Shown here: positions 8,760 through 51,397 of the stretch, in pieces
Numbering within the stretch: position 1 is the first letter of the stretch
Layout: each line of letters starts with the position of its first letter
DNA from: an uncultured Litoreibacter sp.
GTDB lineage: Bacteria; Pseudomonadota; Alphaproteobacteria; Rhodobacterales; Rhodobacteraceae
Length of the DNA: 64,000 nt
Assembly: GCF_947501785.1 (NCBI RefSeq)
Contig: NZ_CANMXB010000001.1
Coordinates: forward strand, 2,313,048-2,377,047
Reading direction: 5' to 3'
Notes under the pieces: model-generated
The model's input: the letters and a program-made list of their open reading frames with translations, nothing else
Database searches by the model: none
Told to the model about the DNA's origin: nothing
Position numbers and translations under genes: made by a program

Positions 8760-8891
8760 CTGCCTAGGGTGCGGCGTCACCGCTGCGGGATCAAGCGAAA
8801 GCCGCGCGCGGGGGCGACTTTCGCGCAACTGTAGCAAACTCTCGCTTAGACGTGATTTCCCGTGTGAGGGGGGCGTCCATATGTTGGCCGG

Positions 8892-9698: not shown

Positions 9699-12600
9699 GC
9701 CTTTGCCTTGCGGCCAACCAATTGGGTGATGCTGGCGCCAATCCAGTTCACAACGAGCAGCGCCAATACCCCCGCCATGAACATCGCAAAGGCTGACGAC
9801 ATGGCCGAAGCAGGGACCAATCCGTGCAACGGGCCTGGCATCGCGCCGGTCCAGATCGTTGCGCCAAGCGTCACCGCGAACAGCACCGCCGCAACAAGCA
9901 CATTGGCCAACATGATGCCCCGAAAGATCGGGGCGGCTCTGCTTGCCGACATCGCCCGGCGCAACGCCTTGGTTTGACGCGCCACATCCGACTGCATCGC
10001 GATCAGCGAGGGGACGACCAACAGCACCAGCAACATCCCAAAGCCCAGCCCGTAGCACAGCGTGATCACCGTGGGTTTGAGGAACTGCGCGTGACGCGAA
10101 CTTTCAAACAGCAGTGGCGCGAGGCCCAAAACGGTGGTCAGCGTTGTCAGCAAAACGGGCCGCAACCGGTCCACCGCGCCATCTACAATGGCGGGGATCA
10201 ACCCGCGTTCCTCAGCATATTCGTCGATGGTCGACACCAGCACGATGGAGTCGTTGATGATGATCCCCGTCATCCCGATCAGCCCCACCACCGTAAACAT
10301 CGACAGCGGAACGTCCCACGCGTGGTGGCCGTAAATGGTGCCGATCAGCCCAAACGGGATGATCGCCATAATCACAATCGGGCGGGTGAAGCTGGCAAAG
10401 ACCCAGGCAAGCGCCAGATAGATGCCGATCAGGCACAAGATCATCCCCAGCATCGCATCGTTGAGGAACTCCTCCTCCTGCTCCGCCAACCCAGATTGTC
10501 GGGACGACACGCCATGATCCTGCTCGATCTGCGGTAATATCTCTTCGGCAATCAGCCCGGCAATCTCTGCCGCGCGTGCGGGGTCATCCTCGGATATGTC
10601 GCCTGTGACTGATACCAGCCTGATCCCGTTTTCCCGCCGCACCGTTGAAAACCCGGTCTGGCTTTGCACCGTCACGATGTCGGCCAATGGCACGTAGACG
10701 CCCGATGGCGCGCGCATGAAGGTTCGGTCCAGGAAGTCCGCCGTCAGCTCACCGGTCGGCAGTTCCACCCGAATGGTGGCGGAGCGTGGACCATCCGGGT
10801 AAGTCGCCGCCTCGATCCCGTTCAGCCGATTGCGCAGCACTCGACCCAGCGCGTCGATGGTAAACCCAAGCGCCTGGCCTTGCGCGGTCAGGTCCAGGAT
10901 CAGCTCCTCCTTGTCATAGGCGAGGCTGTCTTCCACGGCGGACACTTCCGGGAATTGCAGCATTGCGGTCTTGAATGCCTCGGCGGCGGATTTCAGCGTC
11001 TGCGCTTCGGCGCCAAACAGCTGCACATCCAACGAGTCGCCCCCCGGGCCAGATCGCCAGCCACGGAAGCTGATCTGTTCCACCATCGGGTGCCGACGCA
11101 CGGCATCCTGCAATTCGCCCACAAACTGGAAAGACGAATAGGGCCGCTGGTCCGCGTCGATCAACTCAATCGCGATTGCACCCAATTGGTCGGCATCCTT
11201 ACTTTCTTGCCCAGATAACCCGCGCCCCGTGGTGCCGCCCACTTCGGCCAGCACATAGTCCAGCGGGTTGGTGCCGTAGCGCTCTTGGTAGTCATCGGCC
11301 AGGGCATTGGTGGCGCGCTGCATCTCGCGCATCATCTCGATCGTGTCCTCGCGCGTGGCCCCCGGCAGCATCGAGAAGTTGCCGGACACCGACCCCCGCT
11401 CCGGCGCGTTGAAGAACCGCCAGGTGACGTCACCTTTGATGAACAGCGCGGCTTGGCTGGCCAGGACCACCAGCACCAAGGCGAGCACGGGGTAACGCGC
11501 CCAGATCACCAGATGCATCAGCGGGCGGAAGGCACGATGCCGGACCCATTCAAAGCCCACATTGACGGTGCTGGATACCGCGTCGACACCGTGGCGCGAC
11601 ATGGCCAAGACCAGCTCCGCCCGGCGGGGGCGGCTGAACATGTAGAACGAAAACCACAGCAGGAAGAACCCCAACCCGGCCAACGCCCCGATCCCATTGG
11701 CTGAGAACACGGCGGCATATAATCCGCCCTCCGCATCGACCCAGCCCAAAGCGGTCGCGCCCAGCAACAGTCCCAACCCAATCAGGGCGGTCAGCACCAT
11801 GGCCACAACGCTCAGCGCCAAGGCTGCGATGCTCAGTCGCGGGCGGCTGAACCCTTTCGTGGGCCGCTCCTTCAGCGCATGGCTCATGTGGTTGGGCAGG
11901 ATCAGGAAGCATTCCACCAGCGAGGCAATCAGCACCACAATCACGGTAAACGGGATGTCGGCAATCAGATCGCCGAACCGCCCCCCCACGGCCACCAATC
12001 CAAAGAAGGCAATGATGGTCGTCAGCGTCGCGGAAAATACTGGCGCTGACATGCGCCGCGCCGCGTTCTCGGATGCGGTGACAGGGTCCTCCCCCAATTG
12101 TCGCGCCCGGAAATCCGCGTGTTCGCCCACCACAATGGCGTCGTCCACCACGATGCCCAGCGTGATGATAAGCGCAAAAAGCGACACCATGTTGATGGTC
12201 AGCCCGGCCACATACATCAGCGCAATCGCGCCCAGCATTGCAACCGGAATGCCTGCGGCCACCCAGATGGCAGTCCGCACGTTGAGGAACAGAAAGAGCA
12301 GCAAGACCACAAGTCCCAGCCCAACCGCGCCGTTATCCACCAGAATGTCCAGCCGCCCCGTGATGGCCTCTGATCGGGTGCGGATCAGGTCGATGCTGGT
12401 GCCTGAGGGCAGGGTCAGCGCCAGTTCCTCCGCAACCTCGGTGACCTGCGCCTGCAGCTTGATGGCGTCCCCTTGGTTGGACCGGTCCACACGGATCGAA
12501 ATGGCGGGGTTGTCGCCCGCAAAATACGCCCGGTCGCGGTCGGTGCCTTCGACCACAATCGTGGCCACGTCGCCAATCGTCAGGTTGGACCCGTCCGCGT

Positions 12601-13348
12601 TCGACCGCAGTACAATCGCGGCAATCTGGCTGGGGTCACGCTTGGCAATCCCGGTGCGCACCCGCGCGTTGCCGCCAGACACGTCCCCCGCAGGGTCGGC
12701 TGACGCCTCGCCGCGAATGGCCTCTGCTATCTCGGCCATGGTGATGTCGTTCTTGATCAACGCGGTCGAGGCCACCTCGACAATCGTTTCAGGCGCGGCC
12801 ACCCCGCGTATGGAAGTTCTTGTAACGCCTGCCGCAAACAGGCGCGTGACAAATTCGTCGGCGAACCGTCCTAACTGCTCAACCGCCACGGGGCCGGTGA
12901 TCACCACATCCGTCACCCGGTCCCGCCATGCGCCACGCCGGACCACCGGGTCCTCGGCGTCGTCGGGTAAATCGTTCACCGCATCAACCGCCGCCTGCAC
13001 CTCGTCAGCGGCGCGGCTCATGTCCCAATTGGGCTCAAACTCCAGATTGATCGAGGCGCTGCCCTCGCGCGATTGAGAGGTCGAACTTGCAACCCCTTCC
13101 ACACCCAGCAGCGCAGGCTCCATCAACTGCACAATCGCGCGGTCCACGTCATCGGCGCCCGCGCCGTTCCACTGAATATTGACCGACACGCTGTCGAGGA
13201 TCACATCCGGGAAAAACTGCGTCCGCATGCGCGGCAACGCAGCGACGCCCACGGCGATCAGGATCACCAGCAGCAGGTTCGCCGCTGTCCGGTGCCGAGT
13301 AAAATAGGACAGGACGCCGCCGGTTGTGGATTTGATGGCGTCCCGCAC
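9695..13348 (-). CDS. RND efflux transporter permease subunit (AcrB/HAE1 family)
   Basis: This 1217-residue inner-membrane pump has the RND layout: TM1 (LLLVILIAVGVAALP), a large periplasmic loop, TM2-6 including GLVVLLLFLFLNVRTAIWVA and the proton-relay region LGIVVDDAIVV, a second large loop, and TM8-12 with GLIGMTGIIINDSIVLVSTI. It is longer than AcrB (about 1050) because of an inserted hydrophobic stretch around residues 500-570 and a C-terminal extension with two more hydrophobic segments (about 1135-1210). It is preceded by its adaptor gene on the same strand with 3 bases between. Substrates are unknown. Confidence 0.95.
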   Translation of the reverse strand: MRDAIKSTTGGVLSYFTRHRTAANLLLVILIAVGVAALPRMRTQFFPDVILDSVSVNIQWNGAGADDVDRAIVQLMEPALLGVEGVASSTSQSREGSASINLEFEPNWDMSRAADEVQAAVDAVNDLPDDAEDPVVRRGAWRDRVTDVVITGPVAVEQLGRFADEFVTRLFAAGVTRTSIRGVAAPETIVEVASTALIKNDITMAEIAEAIRGEASADPAGDVSGGNARVRTGIAKRDPSQIAAIVLRSNADGSNLTIGDVATIVVEGTDRDRAYFAGDNPAISIRVDRSNQGDAIKLQAQVTEVAEELALTLPSGTSIDLIRTRSEAITGRLDILVDNGAVGLGLVVLLLFLFLNVRTAIWVAAGIPVAMLGAIALMYVAGLTINMVSLFALIITLGIVVDDAIVVGEHADFRARQLGEDPVTASENAARRMSAPVFSATLTTIIAFFGLVAVGGRFGDLIADIPFTVIVVLIASLVECFLILPNHMSHALKERPTKGFSRPRLSIAALALSVVAMVLTALIGLGLLLGATALGWVDAEGGLYAAVFSANGIGALAGLGFFLLWFSFYMFSRPRRAELVLAMSRHGVDAVSSTVNVGFEWVRHRAFRPLMHLVIWARYPVLALVLVVLASQAALFIKGDVTWRFFNAPERGSVSGNFSMLPGATREDTIEMMREMQRATNALADDYQERYGTNPLDYVLAEVGGTTGRGLSGQESKDADQLGAIAIELIDADQRPYSSFQFVGELQDAVRRHPMVEQISFRGWRSGPGGDSLDVQLFGAEAQTLKSAAEAFKTAMLQFPEVSAVEDSLAYDKEELILDLTAQGQALGFTIDALGRVLRNRLNGIEAATYPDGPRSATIRVELPTGELTADFLDRTFMRAPSGVYVPLADIVTVQSQTGFSTVRRENGIRLVSVTGDISEDDPARAAEIAGLIAEEILPQIEQDHGVSSRQSGLAEQEEEFLNDAMLGMILCLIGIYLALAWVFASFTRPIVIMAIIPFGLIGTIYGHHAWDVPLSMFTVVGLIGMTGIIINDSIVLVSTIDEYAEERGLIPAIVDGAVDRLRPVLLTTLTTVLGLAPLLFESSRHAQFLKPTVITLCYGLGFGMLLVLLVVPSLIAMQSDVARQTKALRRAMSASRAAPIFRGIMLANVLVAAVLFAVTLGATIWTGAMPGPLHGLVPASAMSSAFAMFMAGVLALLVVNWIGASITQLVGRKAKA

Positions 13349-13351
13349 GGC

Positions 13352-14809
13352 TTAGCTGCCCATCCGCGATTCAATCCGGGCCACCATCTGCGCAGGCACC
13401 TTGGCCTCTTGCAGCTGACCCAGCATGCGGGTTTTGACTTCTGCCGGGATACGCTTGTTGGCTTCGACAAAGGCAATGATGCGCGCCCTGCGATCTGCGT
13501 CCAGCTCCACCAGTTCGGGCTCCTCTGGCACTCCGGCGCCATCTTCGCGCAATGGTTTCACTTTGATCCCCGCGCCCAGAACTTGGCTGCGTTCCGTCAC
13601 CACTTCACGCCCCCGCAACCCGCGCGCCCGCAGGATCACGTCGTCCCCCTGCCGCCGCAGCACGGTCACCTGCGCTTCTTCCAACCGGTCCTCATCGGCC
13701 AGCACCAGCACGGTGCCGTCCGGGGCCACGGCTGTGGCCGGCAGCTGCACCACCCGTTGCAACGCAGGCTCTTTCGAGATCACGGTCACGAAATCTCCCG
13801 GTCGCAATCCGCCGGTACTGTCGATCTCCGCAAACAACAGCCGCCCCGTCGATCCTTCCGCCACGGCGGCGCTTTCGCGGGTGATGCGGCCTGCAACCGT
13901 CAGGTCGGTGCCCAACACATCCAATCGCACTTCAACGGGCGCTTTGACCAACGCGCCGCTTTCATCAATCAGCCGGGAATATTGCGCCGTGGACACACGG
14001 AACGACACTTCCAGCGCCTTCGGGTCGACCAATTGCGCCAGCCGCTCGTTATTGGCGACCAACCCCCCTGCCGTGGCGCTGACGTCGGACAAACGTCCGT
14101 CAAACGCCGCATAAATCTCGGTATCTGCCAATTGCCGCTCGGCATCCGACACCGCAATCTTGCGGCGCGTGATCAGGGTAGAGACCTGCGCCAACCGCGC
14201 CTCGGCCTGCTGCACGGTCTGGCGGCGTGACAACACGGCCTGATTGGCGGATGACACCGCCAATTCTGCAGCTTCAACCGACGCGGACGTGCCCACATTG
14301 CGCGCCAGCAAGTCCTTCTGCCGGTCCAGCGCTTTTGCCTGCAAATCGGTCTGGTTCCGCGCCGCATCCAATTCGTCCTTGGCAAGCAGAATCGCGCGTT
14401 CTGCGTCCAGCAAATCGGCCTCCGCCTCCAACAGGTCGGTCTGTGCCACCTGCAGCGCCGCCTGCGCATCAGCCGGGTCGATCACCGCCAGCAACTCGCC
14501 CTTGGTGACGGTCCCGCCCTCTTGGAAATTCTCGGCCAGCTCCACCACAGCGCCGCCCACGGGCGCGCGCAAATCAAGGGTGCGCCGCGACCGTATTTCG
14601 CCAAAGCTTGTCAGCTCCGGTGTGATGTTTCCGGGCTCAATCGTGGCCACCCTGACCGAGAAGATCCGCTCCCGCGCGGGCCGCTGCGACGGCTCCTCCG
14701 CCCAGCGGGTTTCCAGCGCCGAATAGACGATGTTGCCGCCCACGGCCAACAGCCCGGCGGTCAATGCCAGCAGAAAGAGGCCAATCAGGCTACGACGAAA
14801 GAAACGCAT
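13352..14809 (-). CDS. RND efflux periplasmic adaptor (membrane fusion protein)
   Basis: This 485-residue HlyD-type protein has an N-terminal membrane anchor (RSLIGLFLLALTAGLLAVGG), a split lipoyl domain (GGAVVELAENFQEGGTVTKG), a coiled-coil hairpin (about residues 125-225, rich in Ala/Leu/Glu heptads), a beta-barrel domain and a C-terminal membrane-proximal domain. It links the RND pump to an outer-membrane channel. No TolC-type gene is nearby, so the pump probably shares one coded elsewhere. It forms a two-gene operon with the permease. Confidence 0.94.
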   Translation of the reverse strand: MRFFRRSLIGLFLLALTAGLLAVGGNIVYSALETRWAEEPSQRPARERIFSVRVATIEPGNITPELTSFGEIRSRRTLDLRAPVGGAVVELAENFQEGGTVTKGELLAVIDPADAQAALQVAQTDLLEAEADLLDAERAILLAKDELDAARNQTDLQAKALDRQKDLLARNVGTSASVEAAELAVSSANQAVLSRRQTVQQAEARLAQVSTLITRRKIAVSDAERQLADTEIYAAFDGRLSDVSATAGGLVANNERLAQLVDPKALEVSFRVSTAQYSRLIDESGALVKAPVEVRLDVLGTDLTVAGRITRESAAVAEGSTGRLLFAEIDSTGGLRPGDFVTVISKEPALQRVVQLPATAVAPDGTVLVLADEDRLEEAQVTVLRRQGDDVILRARGLRGREVVTERSQVLGAGIKVKPLREDGAGVPEEPELVELDADRRARIIAFVEANKRIPAEVKTRMLGQLQEAKVPAQMVARIESRMGS

Positions 14810-39069: not shown

Positions 39070-39750
39070 TTATTGGTTTTGATTGGTACAGCTGCAATTC
39101 TGTTGGCTGCCTTTTATCGTTGTTGGCAGCCTATAAAATCTGAACCCGCCGATACGGTAGTTTTCATCCAAAAAGCTGTTCTTGACGCCGTCGCCGTCCA
39201 CTGTTTCCACCGGTGTTCTTACGAGCTCGACCGGCGCGCGATAGGGATCGCCGTTATTAAGCCAGTCACCACTCAGAACCATGTCTGTGCCATCAAGTTC
39301 CCATGTCCCAAGATAGGGACGCTGAGCATAAGTCAGTTTAAATGACCCATCCTTACGAATCGACATATAGCCTTCGGCGTCAAGCACCAGCCCTTGTTCA
39401 TCGTCGGGTCTAAAAAGCCTGCTCCACAGAATGACGTAATTTTCTTCGGCGCTGCACAACTCATAACGTTGAATGGGTTCACCCGTGCTAAGGTTCCATT
39501 TCTCCTCAAACAGCGCATTCATAATTTGCTCTGAGGAGATAAGCCGTTCTGACGTCTCGAGGTCGTACCGGTGCGTCTTCGCTAGCTCTTCGTCGTCGCC
39601 GTCCTCTTGATCAAGATCATTGCGCCCTTCCGACAGAAGCGGATCGCAAAATGCAACCGGCGCGCTGGTCAGTGAACGGTTTTCGGCAAAGAGCATTGTC
39701 GGTGAAACAAGGCCGACGAAGACAATGGCGACAGGAACAGTGAACTTCAT
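39070..39750 (-). CDS. Secreted protein of unknown function
   Basis: A 226-residue protein with a signal peptide (KFTVPVAIVFVGLVSPTMLFAE). The mature part is acidic at the start (DLDQEDGDDEELAKTHRYDL) and then carries a beta-rich segment with YMSIRKDGSFKLTYAQRPYL and GTWELDGTDMVLSGDW, a pattern of lipocalin-like or META-like small-barrel domains. Two Cys pairs may form disulfides. It marks the left edge of the accessory, lower-GC region. I do not recognise the family. Confidence 0.65.
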   Translation of the reverse strand: MKFTVPVAIVFVGLVSPTMLFAENRSLTSAPVAFCDPLLSEGRNDLDQEDGDDEELAKTHRYDLETSERLISSEQIMNALFEEKWNLSTGEPIQRYELCSAEENYVILWSRLFRPDDEQGLVLDAEGYMSIRKDGSFKLTYAQRPYLGTWELDGTDMVLSGDWLNNGDPYRAPVELVRTPVETVDGDGVKNSFLDENYRIGGFRFYRLPTTIKGSQQNCSCTNQNQ

Positions 39751-39984
39751 CAACTTAACTTTCTAACGGCATCAAGACACCTAGGCTGCGTCCGTATTTG
39801 AATTTAGTCAACCGCGTCGTAATTGACCCTGACCATTCGACATTGCCCATGCTGCATGCGGGTTGGGCATAATGGAATCGCAGATTCCCTTCACATTTGT
39901 GCCTCAGAATTGGCGTTTTGGGGCGCTAGCACCGTCGTTCAACAGGCCTCCCAACATGGCAGGCGAAAACGTTGAGGGGTGCAG

Positions 39985-40854
39985 ATGTATAAGTTTTTAA
40001 AACTGGTTATAGCGTCTGCGCTCTTCGCCTGTTTGTCCACCGTTGCACATGCGCAAAAGGCGGGTGTTGGCGCATGGGAGAACCCAGACTTCACCATGCT
40101 CGGTTGGATCGAAGAAACGCCCGCTTTGGGCTGGTACTACAATTGGCGCCCCGACCAGATTTATTCCAAGACGAGCCACCGGCGGACGGTCGAATTTGTG
40201 CCGATGATCCACAGCGCTAAAGACATTAACAAACGGATCCGGTCAAACGTAACGGTACGCAATTTGCTGGCATTCAACGAGCCTGATGGCCACGGCAACA
40301 TGAGTGTAGGACAGGCCATCAAGCTTTGGCCCAAATTAGAACGGCGTGGATTGCGTTTGAGCAGCCCTGCAACCAAGCGCGGCAATACGTTGGGCAAAAA
40401 TTCCTGGCAATACCAGTTCATGAAAGAAGCGGAGGCACGTGGATTGCGCGTCGACTTTATGGCGGTCCACTACTACTCGACTAATGGCAGCATACCGGAG
40501 TTTCGCAATTGGCTGCGCGCTGTTCACGCAGCATACAAACGACCAATCTGGGTTACAGAATTTGCGCTCATAGACTGGCACCGACCATCACGTACAACAC
40601 ATCAGCAGAATGCAAAGTTTGCCACCGATGCTATTCGGATGATGGAAAGCCTCCCTTTTGTTGAGCGCCACGCCTGGTTTGCCGCCAACCCCTACAAATG
40701 GAACGGACAAACGCCCCGATTGAATCTTGTTAACAACGATCTGACCCTTACGGCGACCGGGCGGGCTTTTGATAGGGTTTTGGGGCAGATCGGATCGCGT
40801 CATGTCTCTGCCAACGACAGAACACCGCTCGGACCTCGAGCGCTGCGCAACTAA
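39985..40854 (+). CDS. GH128-like secreted glycoside hydrolase
   Basis: A 289-residue exported protein (signal peptide to about residue 23, VAHAQ). It resembles the Asl1-like/GH128 TIM barrel of beta-1,3-glucanases: GWYYNWRP near residue 49, LLAFNEPDG with the proposed acid/base Glu99, MAVHYYSTNG, and WVTEFALIDW with the nucleophile Glu192. A GAGGGG site lies ahead of ATG 39985. It stands alone, 408 bases before the glycan operon, and could trim or recycle the glycan made there. Exact bond cleaved is unknown. Confidence 0.85.
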   Translation: MYKFLKLVIASALFACLSTVAHAQKAGVGAWENPDFTMLGWIEETPALGWYYNWRPDQIYSKTSHRRTVEFVPMIHSAKDINKRIRSNVTVRNLLAFNEPDGHGNMSVGQAIKLWPKLERRGLRLSSPATKRGNTLGKNSWQYQFMKEAEARGLRVDFMAVHYYSTNGSIPEFRNWLRAVHAAYKRPIWVTEFALIDWHRPSRTTHQQNAKFATDAIRMMESLPFVERHAWFAANPYKWNGQTPRLNLVNNDLTLTATGRAFDRVLGQIGSRHVSANDRTPLGPRALRN

Positions 40855-41262
40855 GTGATGACGCAGTGGGCGGTACGTTTAATTTAGCAAAAACTAGGGC
40901 CTTGTAGATTGCTTTTTCCGGGTGTTCTGAGCAGGCGGCCCAAATGAGGGATGAAGAATCGCTTTGGCGCGGTTGCAATATCAGTCCTTTTACAGGAATA
41001 CCTATTTTTTGGCTCGAAGGCCCAATATCTTGTGTGCACGTCACCACAGTTAGCTGAAAACCATGAATAAATTTGACTTTTTTCTCAAGGGAGTGATCAT
41101 AGCGTATTATTGCATCTTTCCTATGGTTCTGCTGAAGCCTGAAGATGTGTTCGCTTTTGATTTACGAGTTGTAGTTTGTTGATAAGCATCTGGAACCATA
41201 TATCTATCGGTACTTAGGCTTACACAGAGCAGCTCGTTGTCTTTACTAGGGGGTAAGGATCG
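40855..41262. other. 408-base gap upstream of the glycan operon
   Basis: A/T-rich stretch probably holding the operon promoter and leader. One small frame at 41063-41182 could encode a 39-residue peptide with a hydrophobic centre (GVIIAYYCIFPMVLL), but no ribosome site is seen, so it is not called. Nothing else is recognisable. Confidence 0.5.
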
Positions 41263-42270
41263 GTGGGTAAGGGTAGTCCGCGCATAGTTGCGCGACGCGA
41301 GAAGGTCATTCTCGTTGCGGGAGGAGCAGGCTTTGTTGGCTCCCATCTGTGCAAAAAATTTCTGGGCCAAGGCCACAAAGTGACCTGTGTCGATAACTTC
41401 CTGACCGGAGACATTTCCAATGTCCGCGCGTTGCTGGACGATCCGAACTTTCAGCTGCTGCGCCACGACATTTGCGACCCACTTAAATGGCCCGGCCCAA
41501 TCGACGAAATATACAACATGGCCTGCGCCGCGTCGCCTAGCCGGTATCAGTCCGACCCCATTCACACGGCCAAAACATGTTTTCAGGGCACGTTGAACCT
41601 GCTTGATTTGGCCGAAGAGAAAAACGCGCGTATTCTTCAATCATCCACGTCGGAGGTGTACGGCGACCCTGAGGTCTCGTTGCAGTCGGAAGACTATCTC
41701 GGAAACGTCAATATCTGCGGCCCGCGGGCGTGCTACGATGAGGGGAAGCGCATATCCGAGACACTGATGTGGGAATATGGAACGCATAGGGGCGTCGAAA
41801 CCCGTATTGCCCGTATCTTCAACACCTACGGCCCATATATGCATCCCGAAGATGGCCGTGTCGTTTCAAACTTTGTAGTGCAAGCGCTACAGGGGGATGA
41901 CATCACGATCTATGGAACCGGGCAGCAAACCCGTTCGTTCTGCTTTATCAGCGATCTTGTCGAAGGACTAACCCGTTTGATGGCCTCTGGCGAAAAGATG
42001 CCAGTGAACCTAGGCAACCCCGTTGAATTCACCATGCTTGAGCTTGCTGAACAAGTCATTGCTAAGACCGGTTCGCGTGGTAGTAAACTTGCATATCAGC
42101 CGTTGCCCCAAGATGATCCACAACAGCGCCGCCCAGACATCACCCGTGCAAAGATGATCTTGGACTGGGCTCCTCGGGTCTCTTTATCTGATGGGCTAGA
42201 CATGACAGTCAGCTGGTACCGCGACCGGTTGATCGCGGACAGAGATGCGGCAGCTATCGCAGGGCAATGA
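41263..42270 (+). CDS. UDP-glucuronate decarboxylase (UDP-xylose synthase) family
   Basis: This 335-residue extended SDR shows the UXS pattern: GGAGFVGSHLCKKFL (NAD loop), DNFLTGD, MACAASPSRYQSDPI, STSEVYGDP, and the catalytic Y-x-x-x-K in CYDEGKR followed by RIFNTYGPYMHPEDGRV. UXS converts UDP-glucuronate to UDP-xylose. A GTG start follows an AGGGGGTAAGG site. Its stop overlaps galE (ATGA). It opens the operon uxs-galE-GT2-GH26 and should supply the donor sugar. A UDP-glucuronate supply (UGDH) must be elsewhere. Confidence 0.88.
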   Translation: MGKGSPRIVARREKVILVAGGAGFVGSHLCKKFLGQGHKVTCVDNFLTGDISNVRALLDDPNFQLLRHDICDPLKWPGPIDEIYNMACAASPSRYQSDPIHTAKTCFQGTLNLLDLAEEKNARILQSSTSEVYGDPEVSLQSEDYLGNVNICGPRACYDEGKRISETLMWEYGTHRGVETRIARIFNTYGPYMHPEDGRVVSNFVVQALQGDDITIYGTGQQTRSFCFISDLVEGLTRLMASGEKMPVNLGNPVEFTMLELAEQVIAKTGSRGSKLAYQPLPQDDPQQRRPDITRAKMILDWAPRVSLSDGLDMTVSWYRDRLIADRDAAAIAGQ

Positions 42271-43262
42271 CCACAGATAGCTCCATTCTGGTAACGGGGG
42301 GCGCAGGCTTCATCGGATCGCATGCCTGTAAGGCTCTTTCCGCTGCGGGCTACAAACCGGTGGTGTTTGACAATCTCTCAACGGGGCATGCCGACGCGGC
42401 TTGTTTTGGCCCGCTGATCGTCGGAGACATACGGGATCAGGAGGCTGTCGAAACCGCTTTGAAGGCGCATGGCATTCAAGCCGTCTTGCACTTCGCGGCC
42501 TATGCCTATGTGGGCGAAAGCGTGCACGAGCCGCTTGCGTACTACGACAACAATTTGCGGGGGTTGATGTCCGTGCTCGCTGCAACCTCGGCCTGCGGTG
42601 TTGACCGCATCGTGTTTTCGTCCAGCTGCGCGACATATGGCAGCCCGGATGGGATGCCGATCGTCGAAACAACGCCACAAAACCCCATAAACCCCTACGG
42701 GCGCACCAAGCTTATTGGCGAGCAGATGCTTTCGGATGTTGCGGCGACGTCCAGCCTCAGATTTGCAGCCCTTCGGTATTTTAATGCGGCAGGAGCCGAT
42801 CCTGACGGCCAACTGGGCGAGCGGCATAAGCCGGAAACCCACCTAATTCCGCTAGCCCTGATGGCTGCCGGGTCGCGTCGCCCGGCCTTGTCCGTCTTTG
42901 GCGATGACTACCCGACACCGGATGGTACCTGCATCCGCGACTACATCCATGTTTGCGATCTGGCCCGCGCACATGTCTTGGCTCTGGATTATTTGATGAC
43001 CGGAAAGCCCACAATCAAAGTCAACCTTGGGAGTGGGCAGGGCCATTCCATTCTTGAAATCATCCGCGAAATCGAAGCGTTCACTGGCAAGCCGCTCCCC
43101 GTCCGGTTTGAGCCCCGCCGCCCCGGTGACCCGCCGATCCTGACCGCAGATTCATCACTTGCCGCCGAGGTTCTCAGTTTTCGCACGGAAATGTCCTCCT
43201 TACGGCAGATTATCACAGATGCTGCGCCGTGGTTCGGAGTGGAGCAATATGCAGTCGCCTGA
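42267..43262 (+). CDS. galE: UDP-glucose 4-epimerase
   Basis: This 331-residue enzyme interconverts UDP-glucose and UDP-galactose (in some homologues UDP-xylose/UDP-arabinose). Motifs: GGAGFIGSHACKAL, FDNLSTGH, SSSCATYG, and catalytic YGRTK; DGTCIRDYIHVCDLA and RRPGDPPIL follow as in GalE. It overlaps uxs by 4 bases and the glycosyltransferase gene by 14, so all are co-translated. Confidence 0.93.
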   Translation: MTTDSSILVTGGAGFIGSHACKALSAAGYKPVVFDNLSTGHADAACFGPLIVGDIRDQEAVETALKAHGIQAVLHFAAYAYVGESVHEPLAYYDNNLRGLMSVLAATSACGVDRIVFSSSCATYGSPDGMPIVETTPQNPINPYGRTKLIGEQMLSDVAATSSLRFAALRYFNAAGADPDGQLGERHKPETHLIPLALMAAGSRRPALSVFGDDYPTPDGTCIRDYIHVCDLARAHVLALDYLMTGKPTIKVNLGSGQGHSILEIIREIEAFTGKPLPVRFEPRRPGDPPILTADSSLAAEVLSFRTEMSSLRQIITDAAPWFGVEQYAVA

Positions 43263-45078
43263 GGCCACTCAACCGTTCCTGACTCCAATTGTTGAGGGCC
43301 CAAAACGGCTATTTCTTTGGGCTTCGATCAGTGTCTGGTTGGCCGCGACAGCATGGTTCTGGGTCTGGTGGTTTGATCCTGCTCATATCGATTCTACCTG
43401 GAGATTTGTCTTACTATCCGGCTTGCTAGGGTGGTTGACCTTCCTGCAATGCTATTTCGTCTATTTCGCTATGAGAGGGGTCAGGGCCAGCGCCCCCGAT
43501 CCCGTAGCTGGGCGCTTCCGTGTCGCAATGATTGTGACCAAGACCCCATCGGAACCATTTGCGTTGATCCAGAACACGTTGGAGGCAATGCTGAAGCAAA
43601 ATTTCCCACATGACACCTGGCTCGCTGATGAGGACCCTAACGACGCGACCAAAACCTGGTGCGCGCAGCATGGTGTGCAAATATCGTCGCGCAAGGGCGT
43701 GGAAGCCTATCATCAGGCAACTTGGCCTCGGCGGACGCGATGCAAAGAGGGGAACCTTGCCTATTTTTACGACCATTGGGGGTATGAAGATTACGATATC
43801 GTCAGTCAACTGGACTCAGATCATGTGCCACAACCCGGCTACCTGAAAGAAATTCTCCGGCCTTTTGCAGACGATAAGATTGGCTACGTAAGTGCCCCGT
43901 CAATCTGTTCATCCAACTCCGTACGGAATTGGGCAGTGCGCACCCGGCTACATACCGAGGGAGCGTTTCACGGTATCTTGCAGGCGGGATACAGCAACGG
44001 TTGTGCGCCTATGTGTATCGGGTCGCATTATGCGGTTCGGACCAAGGCCCTGCGTGAGGCCGGAGGTCTGGGCCCCGAATTGGCAGAAGATCACTCGACA
44101 ACGATGTTGATGAACGCGGCCGGCTGGCGCGGCGTGCACGCCGTTGATGCCATCGCGATAGGAGACGGCCCCGCCACAGTTGCAGACCTGGCAATTCAAG
44201 AATTTCAGTGGTCGCGCAGTCTGGTCACGCTTCTACTTGTTCACACGCCGCACTACCTGAAAAAGCTACCATTTTGGCTAAAAGCCCAGTTCTTATTTTG
44301 CCAAGTCCTGTACCCGATTTTCGGCATCACATTCCTCATGATGTATCTTTTACCCATCGCAGCCGTGCTATTGGACATCCGATATGCGGAGGTGACCTTT
44401 CCCCAATATCTTGCCCATGCGGCGCCGCAGATACTTGCGCTGCTGGTGTTCGCCACAACTTTACAGCGCTTAGGGTTGTTCAGACCAACAGACGCCCCGG
44501 TGATCAGCTGGGAGCGCACCTTGTTCTTGCTGCTGCAATGGCCGTGGGTCCTTTGGGGTTGTATCTCAGCGGCACGCGACAGCCTTACCGGACGCTTTGT
44601 TGATTTTCGGATCACTCCGAAGGGGGAAACCGGCCCCGTCCAGCTGCCATACAAGGTTTGGGTCGTGTATCTGGTCCTTGCAATGGGGTGCATCATCCCC
44701 GTGTTGGCTGTCGACGATCTCGAAAATGCGCAGGGGTTCTATCTGCTGACTCTGGTGTCGGGCCTGCTGTACACCTTGACCGTAACGATTATTGTCGTCC
44801 GGCATATGCACGAAAACGGATGGCCCTTTGTGCTCCAGATGCGGGATGTTGCCGTGCAGTTTACCGCGGTTGCCGTCACGATCGCGCTGCTTGTGGGCGC
44901 GTTTACCTCTCGCTCGATCGAGAGCATCTATGCGCTAACTATCGGGTTGGAACCAGTGAGTGTAGTCACGCTGCAAACCAATGTTGCTGGCGCCGGTAGT
45001 GCCAGCCGTGAACCTTTCACATATGAATTCAACTTGGACTGGGGCTTTTTGCCCCCACTTACTCCAACCTCAAACTAG
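43249..45078 (+). CDS. Membrane GT2 glycosyltransferase (processive-synthase type)
   Basis: This 609-residue protein has two N-terminal helices (residues 20-75), a cytoplasmic GT-A domain, and about five C-terminal helices, the layout of cellulose, curdlan and hyaluronan synthases. Catalytic marks: LADEDPNDA (Asp127/129), QLDSDH (Asp189/191), AEDHS (Glu280-Asp281) and QEFQWSRS (317-324) at the Q-x-x-R-W site, where Arg is replaced by Gln. No PilZ domain is evident. ATG at 43249 is inside galE; the longer open frame is not credible. It is the probable polymerase of the locus. Confidence 0.9.
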   Translation: MQSPEATQPFLTPIVEGPKRLFLWASISVWLAATAWFWVWWFDPAHIDSTWRFVLLSGLLGWLTFLQCYFVYFAMRGVRASAPDPVAGRFRVAMIVTKTPSEPFALIQNTLEAMLKQNFPHDTWLADEDPNDATKTWCAQHGVQISSRKGVEAYHQATWPRRTRCKEGNLAYFYDHWGYEDYDIVSQLDSDHVPQPGYLKEILRPFADDKIGYVSAPSICSSNSVRNWAVRTRLHTEGAFHGILQAGYSNGCAPMCIGSHYAVRTKALREAGGLGPELAEDHSTTMLMNAAGWRGVHAVDAIAIGDGPATVADLAIQEFQWSRSLVTLLLVHTPHYLKKLPFWLKAQFLFCQVLYPIFGITFLMMYLLPIAAVLLDIRYAEVTFPQYLAHAAPQILALLVFATTLQRLGLFRPTDAPVISWERTLFLLLQWPWVLWGCISAARDSLTGRFVDFRITPKGETGPVQLPYKVWVVYLVLAMGCIIPVLAVDDLENAQGFYLLTLVSGLLYTLTVTIIVVRHMHENGWPFVLQMRDVAVQFTAVAVTIALLVGAFTSRSIESIYALTIGLEPVSVVTLQTNVAGAGSASREPFTYEFNLDWGFLPPLTPTSN

Positions 45079-45091
45079 GGAGACGTCTATT

Positions 45092-45985
45092 ATGGCATAT
45101 TTCAAGGACAGCTTGCCCTGGAAAGTGGCCGTCAGTTTCGCCATGGCCCCTTATATTGTTTCTGCGGCGGCTCTACCGCCAGGTGACATGCCATACGGCG
45201 CGTTTGATCCGGCCGGGGACTATAGCGACGAGAGCGAGGTTTTGATCGAGCACGTGTTTTTGCCTTGGGAAGACGTCTCGCTCATCTCATTGTTGGATGC
45301 AGATGAATACACCTTGGAGCGCAGCCGCGCCCTGATGGTAACCATCGAACCTTGGACCTGGACCGTCGACGAACGCAACACGCCCGAATTCCTTAAGAAC
45401 GGTATCTTGTCGGGTTACTATGACGCCAACATGCGAGGCATCTGCAAGATTTTGAATGATCTCCAAAGCCCTATTTCGGTGCGGTGGGGGCATGAAATGG
45501 AGCGCACAACGGGCCAATTCATTTGGTCAGACTGGGAACCAGAAGATTATATAACCGCCTACAAGCGTATGATTGATATCTGCCGCGCAGAGGCACCAGA
45601 TATTAACATCGTCTGGTCACCGGCTGGGGATCAGGGGCTTGAGCGCTACTACCCCGGCGACGATTACGTTGATGTTGTGGGGCTGTCTATCTTTGGCCTG
45701 GAAAGTTGGGAGACGGAGATTTTGGGCGGGCCGCGCACCTATGACCAATGGCTCTCTGAAACCTATGCCCGCGCATCTACCTTTGGCAAGCCAGTCATCG
45801 TAGCAGAGCTGGGCTTCGTTGGCAGTGCAGACTACGTCCAAAGCTGGCGCAACGCGGTCAGGCAACCTCAGCCTGACAAGCCACTTTTGTCGGGTGTCGT
45901 CTACTTCAATCAAAAGGAAGTCTATCCATGGCCGGACGGCTACGGGCTGCCTGATTGGCGACTAGAAAGCCAAATTCTTAACTGA
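45092..45985 (+). CDS. GH26-like secreted glycoside hydrolase
   Basis: This 297-residue TIM-barrel protein with an N-terminal hydrophobic signal resembles GH26 (beta-mannanase, and in marine bacteria beta-1,3-xylanase). Acid/base Glu135 is in RWGHEMERTTG, and the nucleophile Glu239 in VIVAELGF; NIVWSPAGD and YYPGDDYVDVVGLSIFG are conserved. AGGGAGAC precedes ATG 45092, 13 bases after the synthase gene, so it belongs to the operon. In synthase-dependent systems such enzymes edit the nascent chain in the periplasm. The substrate is not fixed. Confidence 0.88.
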   Translation: MAYFKDSLPWKVAVSFAMAPYIVSAAALPPGDMPYGAFDPAGDYSDESEVLIEHVFLPWEDVSLISLLDADEYTLERSRALMVTIEPWTWTVDERNTPEFLKNGILSGYYDANMRGICKILNDLQSPISVRWGHEMERTTGQFIWSDWEPEDYITAYKRMIDICRAEAPDINIVWSPAGDQGLERYYPGDDYVDVVGLSIFGLESWETEILGGPRTYDQWLSETYARASTFGKPVIVAELGFVGSADYVQSWRNAVRQPQPDKPLLSGVVYFNQKEVYPWPDGYGLPDWRLESQILN

Positions 45986-46099
45986 GCAAAGTTACACCAG
46001 TTCTTAGATTTCCATTAATTTGCCTTTGAGCTGCGTTAAGATTGCCATAATCAAGTTCTAATAAGACGGGGTAAACCGTCATAGAAGTACGAGGTAGGC

Positions 46100-46393
46100 A
46101 TGTCGAAGCAGTCCCTTTCCGGAGGATGGCGCGCTGTCGCGTTTTTCGGCTTTGCTGGGCTAATAGCAGCCATTGACCCAGCATCGGCTGAGTCTCAGTC
46201 TGACACCAAATCGAAGCTGAAGCCCGTGGCCACCAGTTTTAATTGGATGGCCAATGGAAATTCTCTCGACCGGCGTGAGGCGCGGGCGCGTCAAAACGCA
46301 TTGCGAGCTTCTATCATCAACAGCCGTGGACGCGCTACTTGGATTTGCTCGCCCGCTGGGTTTGGTCAAAAATCCCGCTGCCGCAGAGGTTGA
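46100..46393 (+). CDS. Small secreted protein with a conserved-looking C-terminal motif
   Basis: A 97-residue protein with a signal peptide (VAFFGFAGLIAAIDPASAES), a polar middle and an Arg-rich end including SRGRATWICSPAGFGQKSRC (C-x9-C possible disulfide). A GAGGTAGG site precedes the ATG. It lies in the glycan region between the GH26 gene and the minus-strand membrane enzyme. Function unknown. Confidence 0.6.
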   Translation: MSKQSLSGGWRAVAFFGFAGLIAAIDPASAESQSDTKSKLKPVATSFNWMANGNSLDRREARARQNALRASIINSRGRATWICSPAGFGQKSRCRRG

Positions 46394-46455
46394 TTTGCCC
46401 TCCCATTAACCAAGCAGCTGAACCACGCGACTACTGAATTAGGATGATCGGCTGT

Positions 46456-48906
46456 TCACTGGTCCGCTTGGATAAGGACGTCTGAAATGCAGTCCGATGG
46501 CGGGGACAGCTTGACCTTGAAACCACCATTGCGCCAAAGCTTATAGACCCCATTCCAATATCCGCCCGCGTCGCCACTACTTGAACTAAATTGCTCTGCC
46601 AGATAGTAGATGCCATCAAACTCCACCCATTTCACAGACAGATTTGTGTCACCCGTCAGGCCCTCCCCGGCCCAAGAGTCGTTGAGAAACTGAATACTTA
46701 GAACAGCGCCACACCGATCCGCGTCATTATCCAAAAAATATTGGCGAAGAGCGCTTTGCTCTGTTTCAGTGTCGACCTCTTCCTGTGCGTTGCTGATCGC
46801 GCCGGATACCTCCACAACACCCAACTCCACGCCATCGACGCTAATTCTGGCCTTTGGGAAGTCACGAAAATAGGTGCCCGTGGCGTGAATAGAAAAGCTG
46901 CGGGGCGGCGCTTTTGCATTTGGAGCAAGCTCCGCATCTGAATTGACGAAACGGCTTGAATGGGCTGCCTGCCATGTTAGCCATTGAGAAAGCTTCTCTT
47001 TGTAGGTCAACACAAGGTTGGGGCTCTCGGGTGCGAGGTTTCGCGTTTCGTTCGGGTCGGCCTTCAGGTCGAACAATTCGATCTCTTTGGTGGATGCGTT
47101 GTAGATAACCTTGGTATGTCCCTCTACGAAGCCTACCAAAAAGCCATTCCACGGCGAAAAGAAGATCGTGCCGTTGGGACGCTCAACATCAAATAGGCTA
47201 CGACCTTGCCAAAGCTCTGGTCGGTCAATGTCAAGAAGGTCAAGAATGGTGGCGGCGACGTCAGTCGTCGCGGCAAGACCATCCACCACGTCGCCTTCGA
47301 ACAGGTTCGGATTGATGAAGTAGAGCGGCACGCGTAGATTCTCTTCGTAGACTGCGGATGCATGGCCGTAGGTGCCATGCTCGCCGAAGGCCTCACCGTG
47401 ATCCCCGACAACGACGACCAATGTGTCGTCCATTAGGCCGCGCTCTTCCAATCCTTCCATCAGACTGCCAAACGCCCGGTCCGCAGCCGACACCGCGGCC
47501 ATAAAACGATCAAGGTCAGCATTGCCGGATTGTTCTTCTATCTCACCTTCGACGAAGTAGGGGAAATGCGGCTGCCCGGTCCAGAACGTGGCAAAAAAGG
47601 GCTGATCCGGGTCAGAATCGACCCAATCCAACACTGGTGGCACCGTGCAGCGGTCCGGGCCCGTGTTGTGGTAGCCCGGCCCGCTTGTACCGAAGAATCC
47701 GCCTTCACAGGTCCAGTCGCGGTAGTCTTTGACGATGTCATAGCCGGCATAGGGCAGGTAGTCGGCGCGTCTGTCGAAGCGGTTGTCTGTCGAGGCAAAG
47801 AAGCCGGTGCGAAGGCCTTGTGCTTTCAAAACATCGCCGAGAGCAAGGTAGTCTCGATCAGGAAATTCTTGCTGCGGTGAGACCGCTCGCATCTCTGGCA
47901 CCACGGATGTTGTCAATGCAAAAAGCGCGTAGTTGGACGCAGGCGTTGGCGAATAGACCCTCTCCACCCTCAAGGCGTCCTTGCCGTATTTTGTGAGGTT
48001 CGGGGTAACCGGATACGGGCTGCCATATTCTTCCACAAACCGCGCGGGCACTGATTCGAGCACAAACAGAACGACGTTTTGAATTGGAGTCTGATCACTT
48101 TTCGGGCGTTCAACGGGGGTCGCAAACGCAACATTCGGCGGAACAAGCGGGTTAGAGCCGGAGTCCGCCGCGACGAATTCCCGCAGGCCTTCGTCAGCAG
48201 GTATTACGAAAGACTGGACCATTGCGACGGCCGGGTTCAGCGTTTCGCCCCGCGATAGTTGCTTTGGAGCCGTGGTGTACTCGTTCAACCATCCAGCTGC
48301 GAACATTGGCAAAAAGATCAATACCAATGCGAAACTCGCCTTGGCTTGGGACCGGGTAAGCAGCCGACGGATCAGATAGCGAAGCAGAAGGTAGCCAACC
48401 AACGCCGCGACTATCATCCCCGCCAGTTTAGCATCGAAAAGATGAATGATAGCGTCGCTGGCGTAGCTGCTGTTCAAAATGTCCGCATAGGTGATCCATG
48501 CCCAGGACACCGGCTCGGCCAACATGTTCATTGCGACTATATTCAGGGCCCCCCAGAGCACCAGCACAATGGCGACAAGATTGAAGCCCCAGACCACCAG
48601 CCTTGGCAGGAACAGTTGGCTAACAGCGAATGCTATTGCACCCGCGATGCTGAGCACGAGCATATCCTGAAGGCCACCCTGCGCAGTCAGGCTGACTTGC
48701 TCCAACAAGGGTCGACCAGCGAGACTGGGCCTCAAAATTACGTACCGAAATATCGCGTAGCAAACTGCAGCTGCTAGAACACTGGCGGCAAGAGAGACGG
48801 CGGGAATCGGACAAGTACCGGCCTGCAAACCAAGCGTTGCCTCTTTTGTACGCTCGGATTCAGGGAGCTGAAAATGGATTCGTCTAGGAAAACGATCATT
48901 ATCCAT
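46456..48906 (-). CDS. Membrane phosphoglycerol-transferase/sulfatase-fold enzyme with C-terminal carbohydrate-binding-like domain
   Basis: This 816-residue protein has about five N-terminal helices (residues 35-215), then an alkaline-phosphatase-superfamily domain (about 255-600) like LtaS/OpgB: VVLFVLESVPARFVEEY (metal Glu), TPASNYALFALTTSV with Ser as likely nucleophile instead of the Cys-x-P-x-Arg of sulfatases, and VVVGDHGEAFGEHGTYGH (metal site). The last 190 residues form an extra beta-rich domain (RSFSIHATGTYFRDFPKARI, ISVDGVELGVVEVSG) resembling xylan-binding calcium modules. It probably adds phosphoglycerol or a like group to a surface glycan. ATG 48906 is used instead of an upstream TTG. 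Confidence 0.82.
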   Translation of the reverse strand: MDNDRFPRRIHFQLPESERTKEATLGLQAGTCPIPAVSLAASVLAAAVCYAIFRYVILRPSLAGRPLLEQVSLTAQGGLQDMLVLSIAGAIAFAVSQLFLPRLVVWGFNLVAIVLVLWGALNIVAMNMLAEPVSWAWITYADILNSSYASDAIIHLFDAKLAGMIVAALVGYLLLRYLIRRLLTRSQAKASFALVLIFLPMFAAGWLNEYTTAPKQLSRGETLNPAVAMVQSFVIPADEGLREFVAADSGSNPLVPPNVAFATPVERPKSDQTPIQNVVLFVLESVPARFVEEYGSPYPVTPNLTKYGKDALRVERVYSPTPASNYALFALTTSVVPEMRAVSPQQEFPDRDYLALGDVLKAQGLRTGFFASTDNRFDRRADYLPYAGYDIVKDYRDWTCEGGFFGTSGPGYHNTGPDRCTVPPVLDWVDSDPDQPFFATFWTGQPHFPYFVEGEIEEQSGNADLDRFMAAVSAADRAFGSLMEGLEERGLMDDTLVVVVGDHGEAFGEHGTYGHASAVYEENLRVPLYFINPNLFEGDVVDGLAATTDVAATILDLLDIDRPELWQGRSLFDVERPNGTIFFSPWNGFLVGFVEGHTKVIYNASTKEIELFDLKADPNETRNLAPESPNLVLTYKEKLSQWLTWQAAHSSRFVNSDAELAPNAKAPPRSFSIHATGTYFRDFPKARISVDGVELGVVEVSGAISNAQEEVDTETEQSALRQYFLDNDADRCGAVLSIQFLNDSWAGEGLTGDTNLSVKWVEFDGIYYLAEQFSSSSGDAGGYWNGVYKLWRNGGFKVKLSPPSDCISDVLIQADQ

Positions 48907-48957
48907 GCGCAAGCCTGCCCGGTGGAGAAAGACAATGGTCTTCAGATCGCATTTCGA

Positions 48958-50178
48958 TTACTCGGCAATCAGGCGCGCAATGACGCTTGGGTGCATCACT
49001 GTGTCTTCGCATTTTGAGTTGTCGGGCAGACCATTGCAGGCTCTCCAAAGGGCGCGTATCGTCCCCCTGCCAGCGAAGCCGTCCAATGGTCCGAGGTAAA
49101 TTCCATCCTGCCTGAGTTTCCTTTGCAAAATGTAGATAGCAAAATTTTCGTTCGTTGCGAGAACGTCCCTTGCATGCGCGACTGACTTCAGCTCGGGGCG
49201 ACTGTCGTAGACCTCGGCCAATTCTGCGAAATCTCTGGGTTTCTGAGCTTTTGACGCTTGGATGGTGAAACTCAGCCGGTCTCGAACACGCTCGCTGAGG
49301 GTGTCAGAAAATTCGGACAGATACGTCTCTGCTAGGTCTGGTGAGCTGGACACGTTCAATTGGTTCCCGTCCCGCACCAATTGAATGAGAAATGCCGCTG
49401 CATCTGCGTTTCCCTCACGGGCGGCCGCTTCCAACCCTTCGACGGCCAAGGGCCCGCTTGCACGCATGCTTATCCCATAAAGCCGCCGTTGCGCCTCAAG
49501 CACTGCAATCTTGGTCTCACCAAGGGCCAACGCGCGCTCTGCATAGCCATCAAACTTTCGGCGTTGCGTTTGCCCCAGATAACCATACATGGCGCCTTCA
49601 GCCAAAGATGTCCAAGCGGCACCAACACCCATATTCCCACTTTGCACCAACATGGCTTCAGCCGTCTCGGGATCGGTCCCGCGCCACATCAATGTAGCGC
49701 CAAATGACTGAAGCCCGTTGCCATTTCCGGCCTCAGCTGCAGCCTCAAAAAGCAAGCGCGCCCGCGGCTCGTCTTTTGGCAACTGCTCACCGTAAAGGAA
49801 GAACTTCCCGAGCGCGACCATGGCCTTGTCGTCTCCCGCTTCAACGGCATATTCCAGCAAAGCCTGACCGCCAATCACATCTTGTTCCAGAAACCAGCCA
49901 CCGACCAAATTCTCGCCCAATAGCCTCATGGCGTTCAGGTTGTCGTTATTGGCCGCCGTCCGAAGCAGAGTTTTCGCTTTTTCCAAATCTACAGGGGTGC
50001 CGCTACCCCAAAGATATATCTCTCCCAGCTGAAATTGGGCCTCAGCGTCGCCAGCTGCAGCTACGTCACGGAGTTTGGATAGGTCGGTTTGCTCTGCCTG
50101 CGCGAAAGCGCCAATTGGCGTCGTGACAAAAATCACGGCAGCAACAGCAAGAGCTCCAAAAATACGCACGCTAATCAT
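48958..50178 (-). CDS. Sel1-repeat envelope protein with a C-terminal peptidoglycan-binding-like domain
   Basis: A 406-residue exported protein (signal ending about GAFAQAEQ) with at least five Sel1/TPR-type repeats (AEAQFQLGEIYLWGSGTPVD, MVALGKFFLYGEQLPKDE and others) and a C-terminal stretch LQRKLRQDGIYLGPLDGFAG, which looks like a peptidoglycan-binding domain 1 (L-x-x-x-G-Y-x-x-G-x-x-D-G). AlgK-like Sel1 scaffolds serve in synthase-dependent exopolysaccharide secretion. It precedes the membrane enzyme gene by 51 bases, so both are likely one unit. ATG 50178 is chosen over 50199 for its AAGGGAAAG site. Confidence 0.82.
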   Translation of the reverse strand: MISVRIFGALAVAAVIFVTTPIGAFAQAEQTDLSKLRDVAAAGDAEAQFQLGEIYLWGSGTPVDLEKAKTLLRTAANNDNLNAMRLLGENLVGGWFLEQDVIGGQALLEYAVEAGDDKAMVALGKFFLYGEQLPKDEPRARLLFEAAAEAGNGNGLQSFGATLMWRGTDPETAEAMLVQSGNMGVGAAWTSLAEGAMYGYLGQTQRRKFDGYAERALALGETKIAVLEAQRRLYGISMRASGPLAVEGLEAAAREGNADAAAFLIQLVRDGNQLNVSSSPDLAETYLSEFSDTLSERVRDRLSFTIQASKAQKPRDFAELAEVYDSRPELKSVAHARDVLATNENFAIYILQRKLRQDGIYLGPLDGFAGRGTIRALWRACNGLPDNSKCEDTVMHPSVIARLIAE

Positions 50179-50677
50179 ACCACTTTCCCTTGGATTCATT
50201 TAACGGGATGAAGGTCACTGGAGTCAAATATTCCACGAGCTTGCGGGCGCGACCACAGCATGGGTTTTGACAGAACTCCGTTGCTGAACCAAACCTAAGC
50301 GGTTTTTCCACTGACGCAGCGTATACTTAAGATATTTAATTCGCCGCATGCAAATCAGTCAGGTTTTTGTGCAAGTTGTTGGGGACGTTCCCGACGAGCC
50401 ATGCGGTAGAGTTGGCGGGTTCTAAACAAATTCTGAGGCTGGATAAGCAAAGAAAACGGCTGCTATTTCGCATCGCGCTTCTTGAAGATACGAGGACGCA
50501 ATGGAGCGTTTCAGTGCTGTGTTGGCAGATTCATACTTCTTTGGAGTAAGCGATGATCGGTTTGACGTGCCGCGCCGCAGCATCAAATCTTCGTTGTGAG
50601 CGACTGCTAATGGGATGTACCGGCTGCTTCACCCAGCAGGTTAGGCTTTGCCTATTTCTGCAAACTGGAGAAGTAGC
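50179..50677. other. 499-base gap between the glycan region and the IS110 remnant
   Basis: No credible gene is seen. The right part, from about 50560, probably is the left end of the insertion element whose transposase remnant follows. The left part should hold the promoter for the Sel1 gene. Confidence 0.45.
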
Positions 50678-51397
50678 ATGGCGAAGAATGACTTTGACGA
50701 GCTGATGTCGATCGGCGTCGATATAGACAAGGACACCTTCCACATTGTGGGTTTTGACCCGTCCGGACAACGCGTTTTGCGCAAACAGATTGAGCGACTG
50801 GCGTTGGCCGCGACATTTGAGAAGCTGCCGCGCTGTATCTTGGGCATGGAGCCATGCCTGAGCGCACACTTTGTCAGCCGGACATTGCGTGAGATGGGCT
50901 TCGAGCCCCGGATCAACCCGGCGATCTATGTGAAGCCATTCAATAAGGGTCAAAAGAACAACTACAACGACGCGGAGGCAATCGCCAAGGCGGCACTTCG
51001 CCCCAACCTGCAAACCGTGTCCGAGAAGAGCCAGGATCAGCTGGACCTGCAGGCACTGCATCGGGTCAGGTCAAGGTTGGTGTCTCGTCGGACGGCGACT
51101 ATCAATCAGATCCGCGCATTCCTGATTGAGCAGGGCATCACGGTACGGAAGGGGCTTCGGGCTTTGAAGAACTCGTTTGAGGCGATCCTCGAAGAGCGCA
51201 AGGATGAGATATCGAGCCCAAAGCGGTCATTGACTACCGGTAATCCAACTTGTAGGGTTTGCCCCTTGGAAAGATCGAACAACTGGCCGCAATACGAACT
51301 GGCCTGTAAAAAATGCTTGATGGTCATTCAGAGTGCTAGCCAGATACCCTGCTGGGAAGTTTTGACTATTTCGCGCCTTAACCTAGAAGTCTGCTGA
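50678..51397 (+). pseudogene. IS110-family transposase, C-terminally truncated
   Basis: The first 180 residues match the DEDD transposase domain of the IS110 family: SIGVDIDKDTFHIVG (Asp), LGMEPC (Glu), and YNDAEAIAKAA (acidic pair), followed by the basic RVRSRLVSRRTATINQIRAF helix. From about 51215 on (after EERKDEISSP), the frame reads into sequence without family similarity, and the C-terminal Transposase_20 domain with its Ser is missing. Full members have about 340 residues. It is a remnant and marks a past insertion at the edge of the accessory region. Confidence 0.85.

Follow-up and report, generated by a model that had tools for sequence, protein, structure and literature searches.

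A gene cluster in the 64,000-nucleotide stretch of DNA analysed here, from an uncultured Litoreibacter sp. (hereafter the window; its genome comprises 3.89 Mb in 3 contigs), likely represents, in Rhodobacterales, the ApsS (arabinose-containing polysaccharide, APS) family of synthase-dependent exopolysaccharide systems and would work by the steps set out below. Sequence comparison identifies its core, uxs-galE-GT2-GH26, as the core of the Sinorhizobium meliloti APS operon and not a new type of system. The original prediction, made from the letters alone, had proposed a synthase-dependent glycan system whose gene set matched none known; the genes do belong together, the claim of novelty fails for the core, and the cluster is a real and strongly linked variant of the known APS kind. 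Most useful among the new findings are a constant small protein, an LtaS-like partner bearing a CBM60 domain, and the motif QEFQW in the synthase. A search of the open-licence literature found no paper on this cluster in Rhodobacterales, and the available portions of PMC13420450 and PMC9025767 contain nothing on it there. The genes are as follows:

39979–40854, + strand: GH128-like secreted glycoside hydrolase, accessory (PF11790, 155 bits)
41263–42270, + strand: uxs, UDP-glucuronate decarboxylase / UDP-xylose synthase (59% identity to S. meliloti pSymB uxs)
42267–43262, + strand: galE-like gene, probably uxe, a UDP-xylose/UDP-arabinose 4-epimerase (TIGR01179, 400 bits; cut-off 262)
43249–45078, + strand: GT2 membrane synthase of the ApsS family with motif QEFQW (PF13632, 54 bits)
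45092–45985, + strand: GH26 hydrolase, apsE counterpart, with a signal peptide by reading (PF02156, 29.4 bits; cut-off 20.2)
46100–46393, + strand: small secreted protein ending in a conserved C-terminal tail with two cysteines (no Pfam match)
46456–48912, − strand: membrane LtaS/sulfatase-fold enzyme with a C-terminal CBM60 (PF00884, 128 bits; PF16841; CBM60, 31.1 bits, cut-off 28.2)
48958–50199, − strand: secreted Sel1-repeat protein, candidate AlgK-like scaffold (PF08238, 59 bits)

Every gene named in the original prediction is present as a long open frame with a profile or solved-structure match. Its description of the operon genes as overlapping holds for uxs and galE (4 nucleotides) and for galE and GT2 (14 nucleotides), but not for GH26, whose likeliest start, read from the sequence, is the ATG at 45092, 13 nucleotides past the GT2 stop.

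The match to the APS operon was found by translated search (tblastn) of the GT2 against plasmid records, of which 448 matched, 117 of them across 80% or more of the query. Identity in the 40 matches listed, which belong to Loktanella, Sulfitobacter, Sinorhizobium, Rhizobium and other Rhizobiales, is 47.6–56%. Gene order in S. meliloti SM11 is uxs-galE-GT2-DUF995-GH26-DUF995. Compared with pSymB of S. meliloti B401, where gene names were assigned by order and replicon and not by locus tag, the window proteins reach identities of 59% for uxs, 57% for uxe, 48% for apsS (605 residues) and 47% for GH26 (257 residues). The window shares the order uxs-uxe-GT2, holds GH26 (ApsE) within the operon in the same relative position, and has a two-cysteine-tail gene beside the operon, as S. 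meliloti does; the S. meliloti product contains arabinose and is made under high c-di-GMP. The LtaS-CBM60, Sel1 and GH128 genes, in contrast, are features of the window that were not found in the seven rhizobial stretches read.

Because the S. meliloti counterpart of galE is Uxe, the window gene probably encodes a Uxe-like epimerase for UDP-xylose and UDP-arabinose, and arabinose takes the place of the galactose in the original guess; a glycan that contains pentose is the predicted product. In a tree of galE proteins, the window protein groups with the S. meliloti epimerase and not with the two further GalE of its own genome, with weak support (71). Elsewhere in that genome, a second uxs-galE pair (L123, G000:C1:3337500-3356500, at 7700-9699), whose galE is 54% identical to that of the window, adjoins what appear by eye to be capsule export, kdsA and glycosyltransferase genes. 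A Rhizobium APS operon (L125) includes a UDP-glucose dehydrogenase gene at 10921-12339, which would supply UDP-glucuronate.

The same core recurs across relatives. Neighbourhoods were taken from the best 80 named loci of at least 538 relatives (84 loci in some counts), and genes were counted only at loci with room for them. Among these, uxs lies upstream of GT2 in 76/77, a separate galE is found in 69/77, GH26 in 77/77 and the small protein in 69/76.

The GT2 falls in the ApsS family, far from cellulose synthase; a grouping inside a cellulose synthase clade would have counted against the original prediction. It scores 69.1 bits against the CelA model (cut-off 699.1), and its nearest solved chain is BcsA, at 74 bits with a four-sequence profile. 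Both proteins share the GT2 fold with membrane helices, and the alignment lays QEFQW of the window protein over QRGRW of BcsA; in cellulose synthase the QxxRW motif holds UDP. QEFQW occurs in 83 of 84 loci (81 by a first scan and two more with Ala after the motif), the exception being L077, whose chosen frame is broken. A tree of 59 rows was built from 7 rhizobial GT2, 40 labelled Rhodobacterales (which include a few others: L075 Maritalea, L100 and L112) and 12 other GT2 frames, without the curdlan (CrdS) and mixed-linkage (BgsA) synthases. QEFQW is present in all 47 ApsS rows, and QxxRW, by simple pattern, in 3/12 outgroup frames. ApsS rows of Rhizobiales and Rhodobacterales stand together, apart from the 12 other frames, and the 7 rhizobial rows form one clade (SH-aLRT 100) that branches amid the 40 Rhodobacterales rows; this nesting is unsure because the outgroup branches are very long and their join has a support of 65.

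These data bear on a different identity for the cluster, namely a known glucan system with a cellulose, curdlan or mixed-linkage glucan synthase. Distant homology, with BcsA as the nearest solved chain, is what such a reading has in its favour; the CelA and BcsA scores, QEFQW in place of QxxRW, and the presence of pentose sugar-nucleotide genes in the operon make it highly improbable, the direct comparison having covered cellulose synthase but neither curdlan nor mixed-linkage synthases; cellulose synthase itself was rejected on the two scores and the tree placement. A degradation locus was likewise considered and rejected, the operon being built on sugar-nucleotide and synthase genes.

Linkage of the genes was evaluated in 149 Rhodobacteraceae-family genomes, one genus code each and the window's own genome included, which were searched five times. 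Strong-match thresholds were chosen after seeing the gaps in score. The GT2 has a strong match in 14/149 genomes (E below 1e-200, against 2e-20 for the next best), and GH26 matches strongly in the same 14; among lower-scoring GH26 relatives, G003 has a second match (1e-15) and G095 a single one (5e-8). The small protein is found in these 14 as well (E 5e-25 to 3e-5) and in 0/135 others at E up to 0.01, in a search that scored only 33 first-look candidates per genome, with a profile (A3) that includes at least three proteins from the 14 genomes themselves (own, L043 and L083). Full-length LtaS-like proteins occur in 5/149 genomes (E below 1e-100; next best 8e-18), all within the 14; weak sulfatase matches, left out of the count, would raise the tally to 135/149. 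Strong Sel1 matches number 6/149, with 5 in the 14 (weak ones in 60), and strong GH128 matches 7/149, with 6 in the 14; the odd genome in both cases is G070, where GH128 is located elsewhere. One-sided Fisher values, which ignore shared ancestry, are 6e-20 for 14/14 vs 0/135, 3.5e-6 for LtaS-like, 2.0e-5 for Sel1 and 1.5e-6 for GH128. Homologues scattered without co-occurrence, another outcome that the original prediction had set against itself, were not seen in these genomes.

The small protein begins with a hydrophobic segment, varies in its middle part and ends in a conserved two-cysteine tail; it is a constant partner of the synthase. Seven rhizobial loci (L032, L033, L125-L129) were chosen from the 40 listed plasmid matches; reading for the tail motif finds it beside the operon, on the opposite strand, in 7/7, and phmmer at E up to 0.01 recovers it in 6/7; the L033 protein differs in the part ahead of the tail. 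Between the window and S. meliloti proteins, identity is 67% over 18 tail residues (E 3e-5), with nothing else in common. The cluster gene list for S. meliloti in the accessible part of PMC7902896 does not include it, and it may be an overlooked part of the APS-type system. A DNA-pattern search for the protein in the window's own genome returned one match, vs one and one in controls, and gives no evidence either way. At L071, two small two-cysteine-tail proteins stand in tandem (13009-13317 and 13376-13726).

Both hydrolases have conserved Glu residues. In GH26, the catalytic Glu E172 and E276 (numbered in a 334-residue frame) are kept in at least 95% of 82 rows and align over HE and AE of endoglucanase H, which with a beta-1,3-xylanase is nearest among solved chains (49 and 44 bits, respectively). 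In the GH128-like protein, Glu101 of NEP and Glu194 are kept in at least 95% of 19 rows; its best solved-structure matches (124 bits) carry the name Glyco_hydro_cc, which we take to be GH128. Accessory genes were counted at the 52 loci that have 9 kb or more of upstream and 8.5 kb or more of downstream sequence; GH128 is near 10/52 of these, a match below 300 bits (L042) being left out of the count.

The extra C-terminal domain that the original prediction noticed on the LtaS-like protein proved to be CBM60. A scan of 12 such proteins, one from the window and the others from 11 named loci, found both the sulfatase domain and CBM60 in every one (E up to 0.01). A membrane-anchored sulfatase-type domain is indicated by PF00884, hydrophobic stretches and helices in the structural model (pLDDT 74.6), whose fold matches 3lxq, PbgA/YejM structures, sulfatases, LtaP and LtaS. 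The LtaS/LtaP/PbgA-YejM/VP1736 superfamily supplies the top fold matches and shares the sulfatase-type domain behind several hydrophobic stretches; the window protein, unlike its members, carries a CBM60 at its C-terminal end. Curated models fall far below their cut-offs (LtaS, 44.5 bits vs 970; OpgB-type, 38.7 vs 572). The alignment shows no variation in DHGE or in one Ser (S325 in A2), where LtaS has Thr instead.

The Sel1 model (pLDDT 88.8) is matched first by other Sel1 proteins, and AlgK, in the AlgKX complex, follows at a Foldseek E of 1.9e-4 and weaker. AlgK of the alginate system is a secreted Sel1-type solenoid like the window protein, which is better matched by other Sel1 proteins and has a peptidoglycan-binding-like tail below threshold. 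In this tail, which the original prediction had called peptidoglycan-binding-like, Pfam similarity is only sub-threshold (E 0.16 in the window protein, at best 0.0023 in a relative), and 3/7 ends scanned have no match.

The LtaS-like and Sel1 proteins could simply be encoded next to the glycan system and serve a different function, such as lipid or algal-sulfate chemistry. They lie on the opposite strand in the window, are missing from most named loci with room, and the LtaS-like fold also matches sulfatases. We nevertheless consider this improbable, given that all five genomes with the full-length LtaS-like protein, and five of the six with strong Sel1, have the synthase; that in L073, L074, L091, L102 and L106 sel1 and ltaS immediately precede uxs in the same orientation; and that in the sixth Sel1 genome, G070, sel1 fragments lie some 2.4 kb away from a GT2 remnant interrupted by stops. 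At the loci themselves, all 7/7 with LtaS-like also have Sel1. The G070 region (C1:1091864-1096049) is a decaying copy in its own right, with sel1 in pieces and four stops in the GT2 remnant.

For the ApsS-family system that we favour, S. meliloti homology suggests that Uxs would convert UDP-glucuronate to UDP-xylose, that the GalE-like Uxe would hold UDP-xylose and UDP-arabinose in equilibrium, and that the membrane GT2 would polymerise a pentose-containing glycan and thread the chain through the inner membrane. The secreted GH26, judged by homology and domains, would trim or release the chain. Domains and co-occurrence together suggest that in this branch the Sel1 protein would serve as a scaffold of the periplasmic path, while CBM60 would let the LtaS-like enzyme grip the chain and add glycerol-phosphate or a similar group; we infer glycerol-phosphate transfer as its activity. 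Periplasmic decoration, which the original prediction had also suggested, is made more likely by the CBM60 on this enzyme. The small two-cysteine-tail protein would perhaps bind or anchor the polymer.

Several observations weigh against this reading. For no Rhodobacterales is the product of an ApsS-type cluster known. The DUF995 genes (ApsH1/ApsH2) and the AraC-type regulator (CuxR) beside the operon, both features of the S. meliloti cluster, have no match in the window (best E 0.21 for DUF995 among its frames); a DUF995-like frame is nearby in 7/80 named loci, and a regulator match at E up to 1e-10 was found only in S. meliloti pSymB (L032) of 84 loci. No outer-membrane exporter was recognised near the 84 loci, whose open reading frames were judged by eye. 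The Pfam match of GH26 is short and modest, and many of the LtaS-like fold matches are sulfatases. Sel1 is near 13/52 and LtaS-like near 7/52 well-covered loci; decoration is therefore not general. Finally, a separate galE was not found in 8/77 named loci with room.

That last count, which includes Thioclava L092, L095 and L097, is also an argument for an ApsS-related synthase whose polymer differs from S. meliloti APS, being either a xylan or a glycan of mixed pentoses and hexoses; galE would then keep its classic UDP-galactose role or be dispensable. CBM60 is named as xylan-binding, the solved chains nearest to GH26 are endoglucanase H and a beta-1,3-xylanase, and between the orders ApsS rows share only about 50% identity. 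We regard this as a realistic possibility, set against galE lying beside GT2 in 69/77 named loci and grouping, though with a support of just 71, with the S. meliloti epimerase, and against the two further GalE that the genome already has. The three Thioclava loci have no separate galE between uxs and GT2 and are natural test cases for a need for UDP-arabinose.

A more specific version of the ApsS reading is offered tentatively, and we think it rather unlikely to hold in full. Here the product would be a hemicellulose-like pentosan: an ApsS with Q for R in QxxRW would make a xylose/arabinose chain, an LtaS-type enzyme would hold that chain via CBM60 and decorate it with glycerol-phosphate in the style of teichoic acid, and the small protein would be an obligate part of the matrix or exporter in both orders, overlooked in S. 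meliloti.

Around the loci, 11 families recur in at least 5/84 at scattered offsets, among them ABC transporters, a histidine kinase, GntR-type and response regulators, UDP-glucose dehydrogenase (5 loci) and apparent wrong-strand frames; no exporter or regulator holds a fixed recurring position among the 84 loci. In the window, G+C is about 50–58% across the cluster vs 57–62% to its left. A promoter scan found 2 vs 7.2 expected in shuffles, and a terminator scan 14 vs 12.5 expected. An IS110-type transposase frame (50648-51397; PF01548, 60 bits) lies just past the Sel1 gene. On the other side, 39070-39753 (− strand) encodes a putative secreted protein with no Pfam match, which also adjoins the GH128-like gene in the closest relative, L036.

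Within its own genus, the GT2 is present in 2/13 genomes (own included), the other copy being just 54% identical, and the GT2 of Pseudophaeobacter flagellatus is 74% identical to that of the window. Because the gene is patchy in the genus, its spread speaks for transfer or repeated loss. If the ApsS reading is correct, a polysaccharide known from one plant symbiont would extend to a large aquatic lineage, and the proposed periplasmic decorating enzyme would bring its own xylan-binding module. The QEFQW synthases offer a natural variant of the QxxRW motif of cellulose synthase, and the gene of the small protein, a candidate obligate partner, is open to immediate testing in laboratory S. meliloti.

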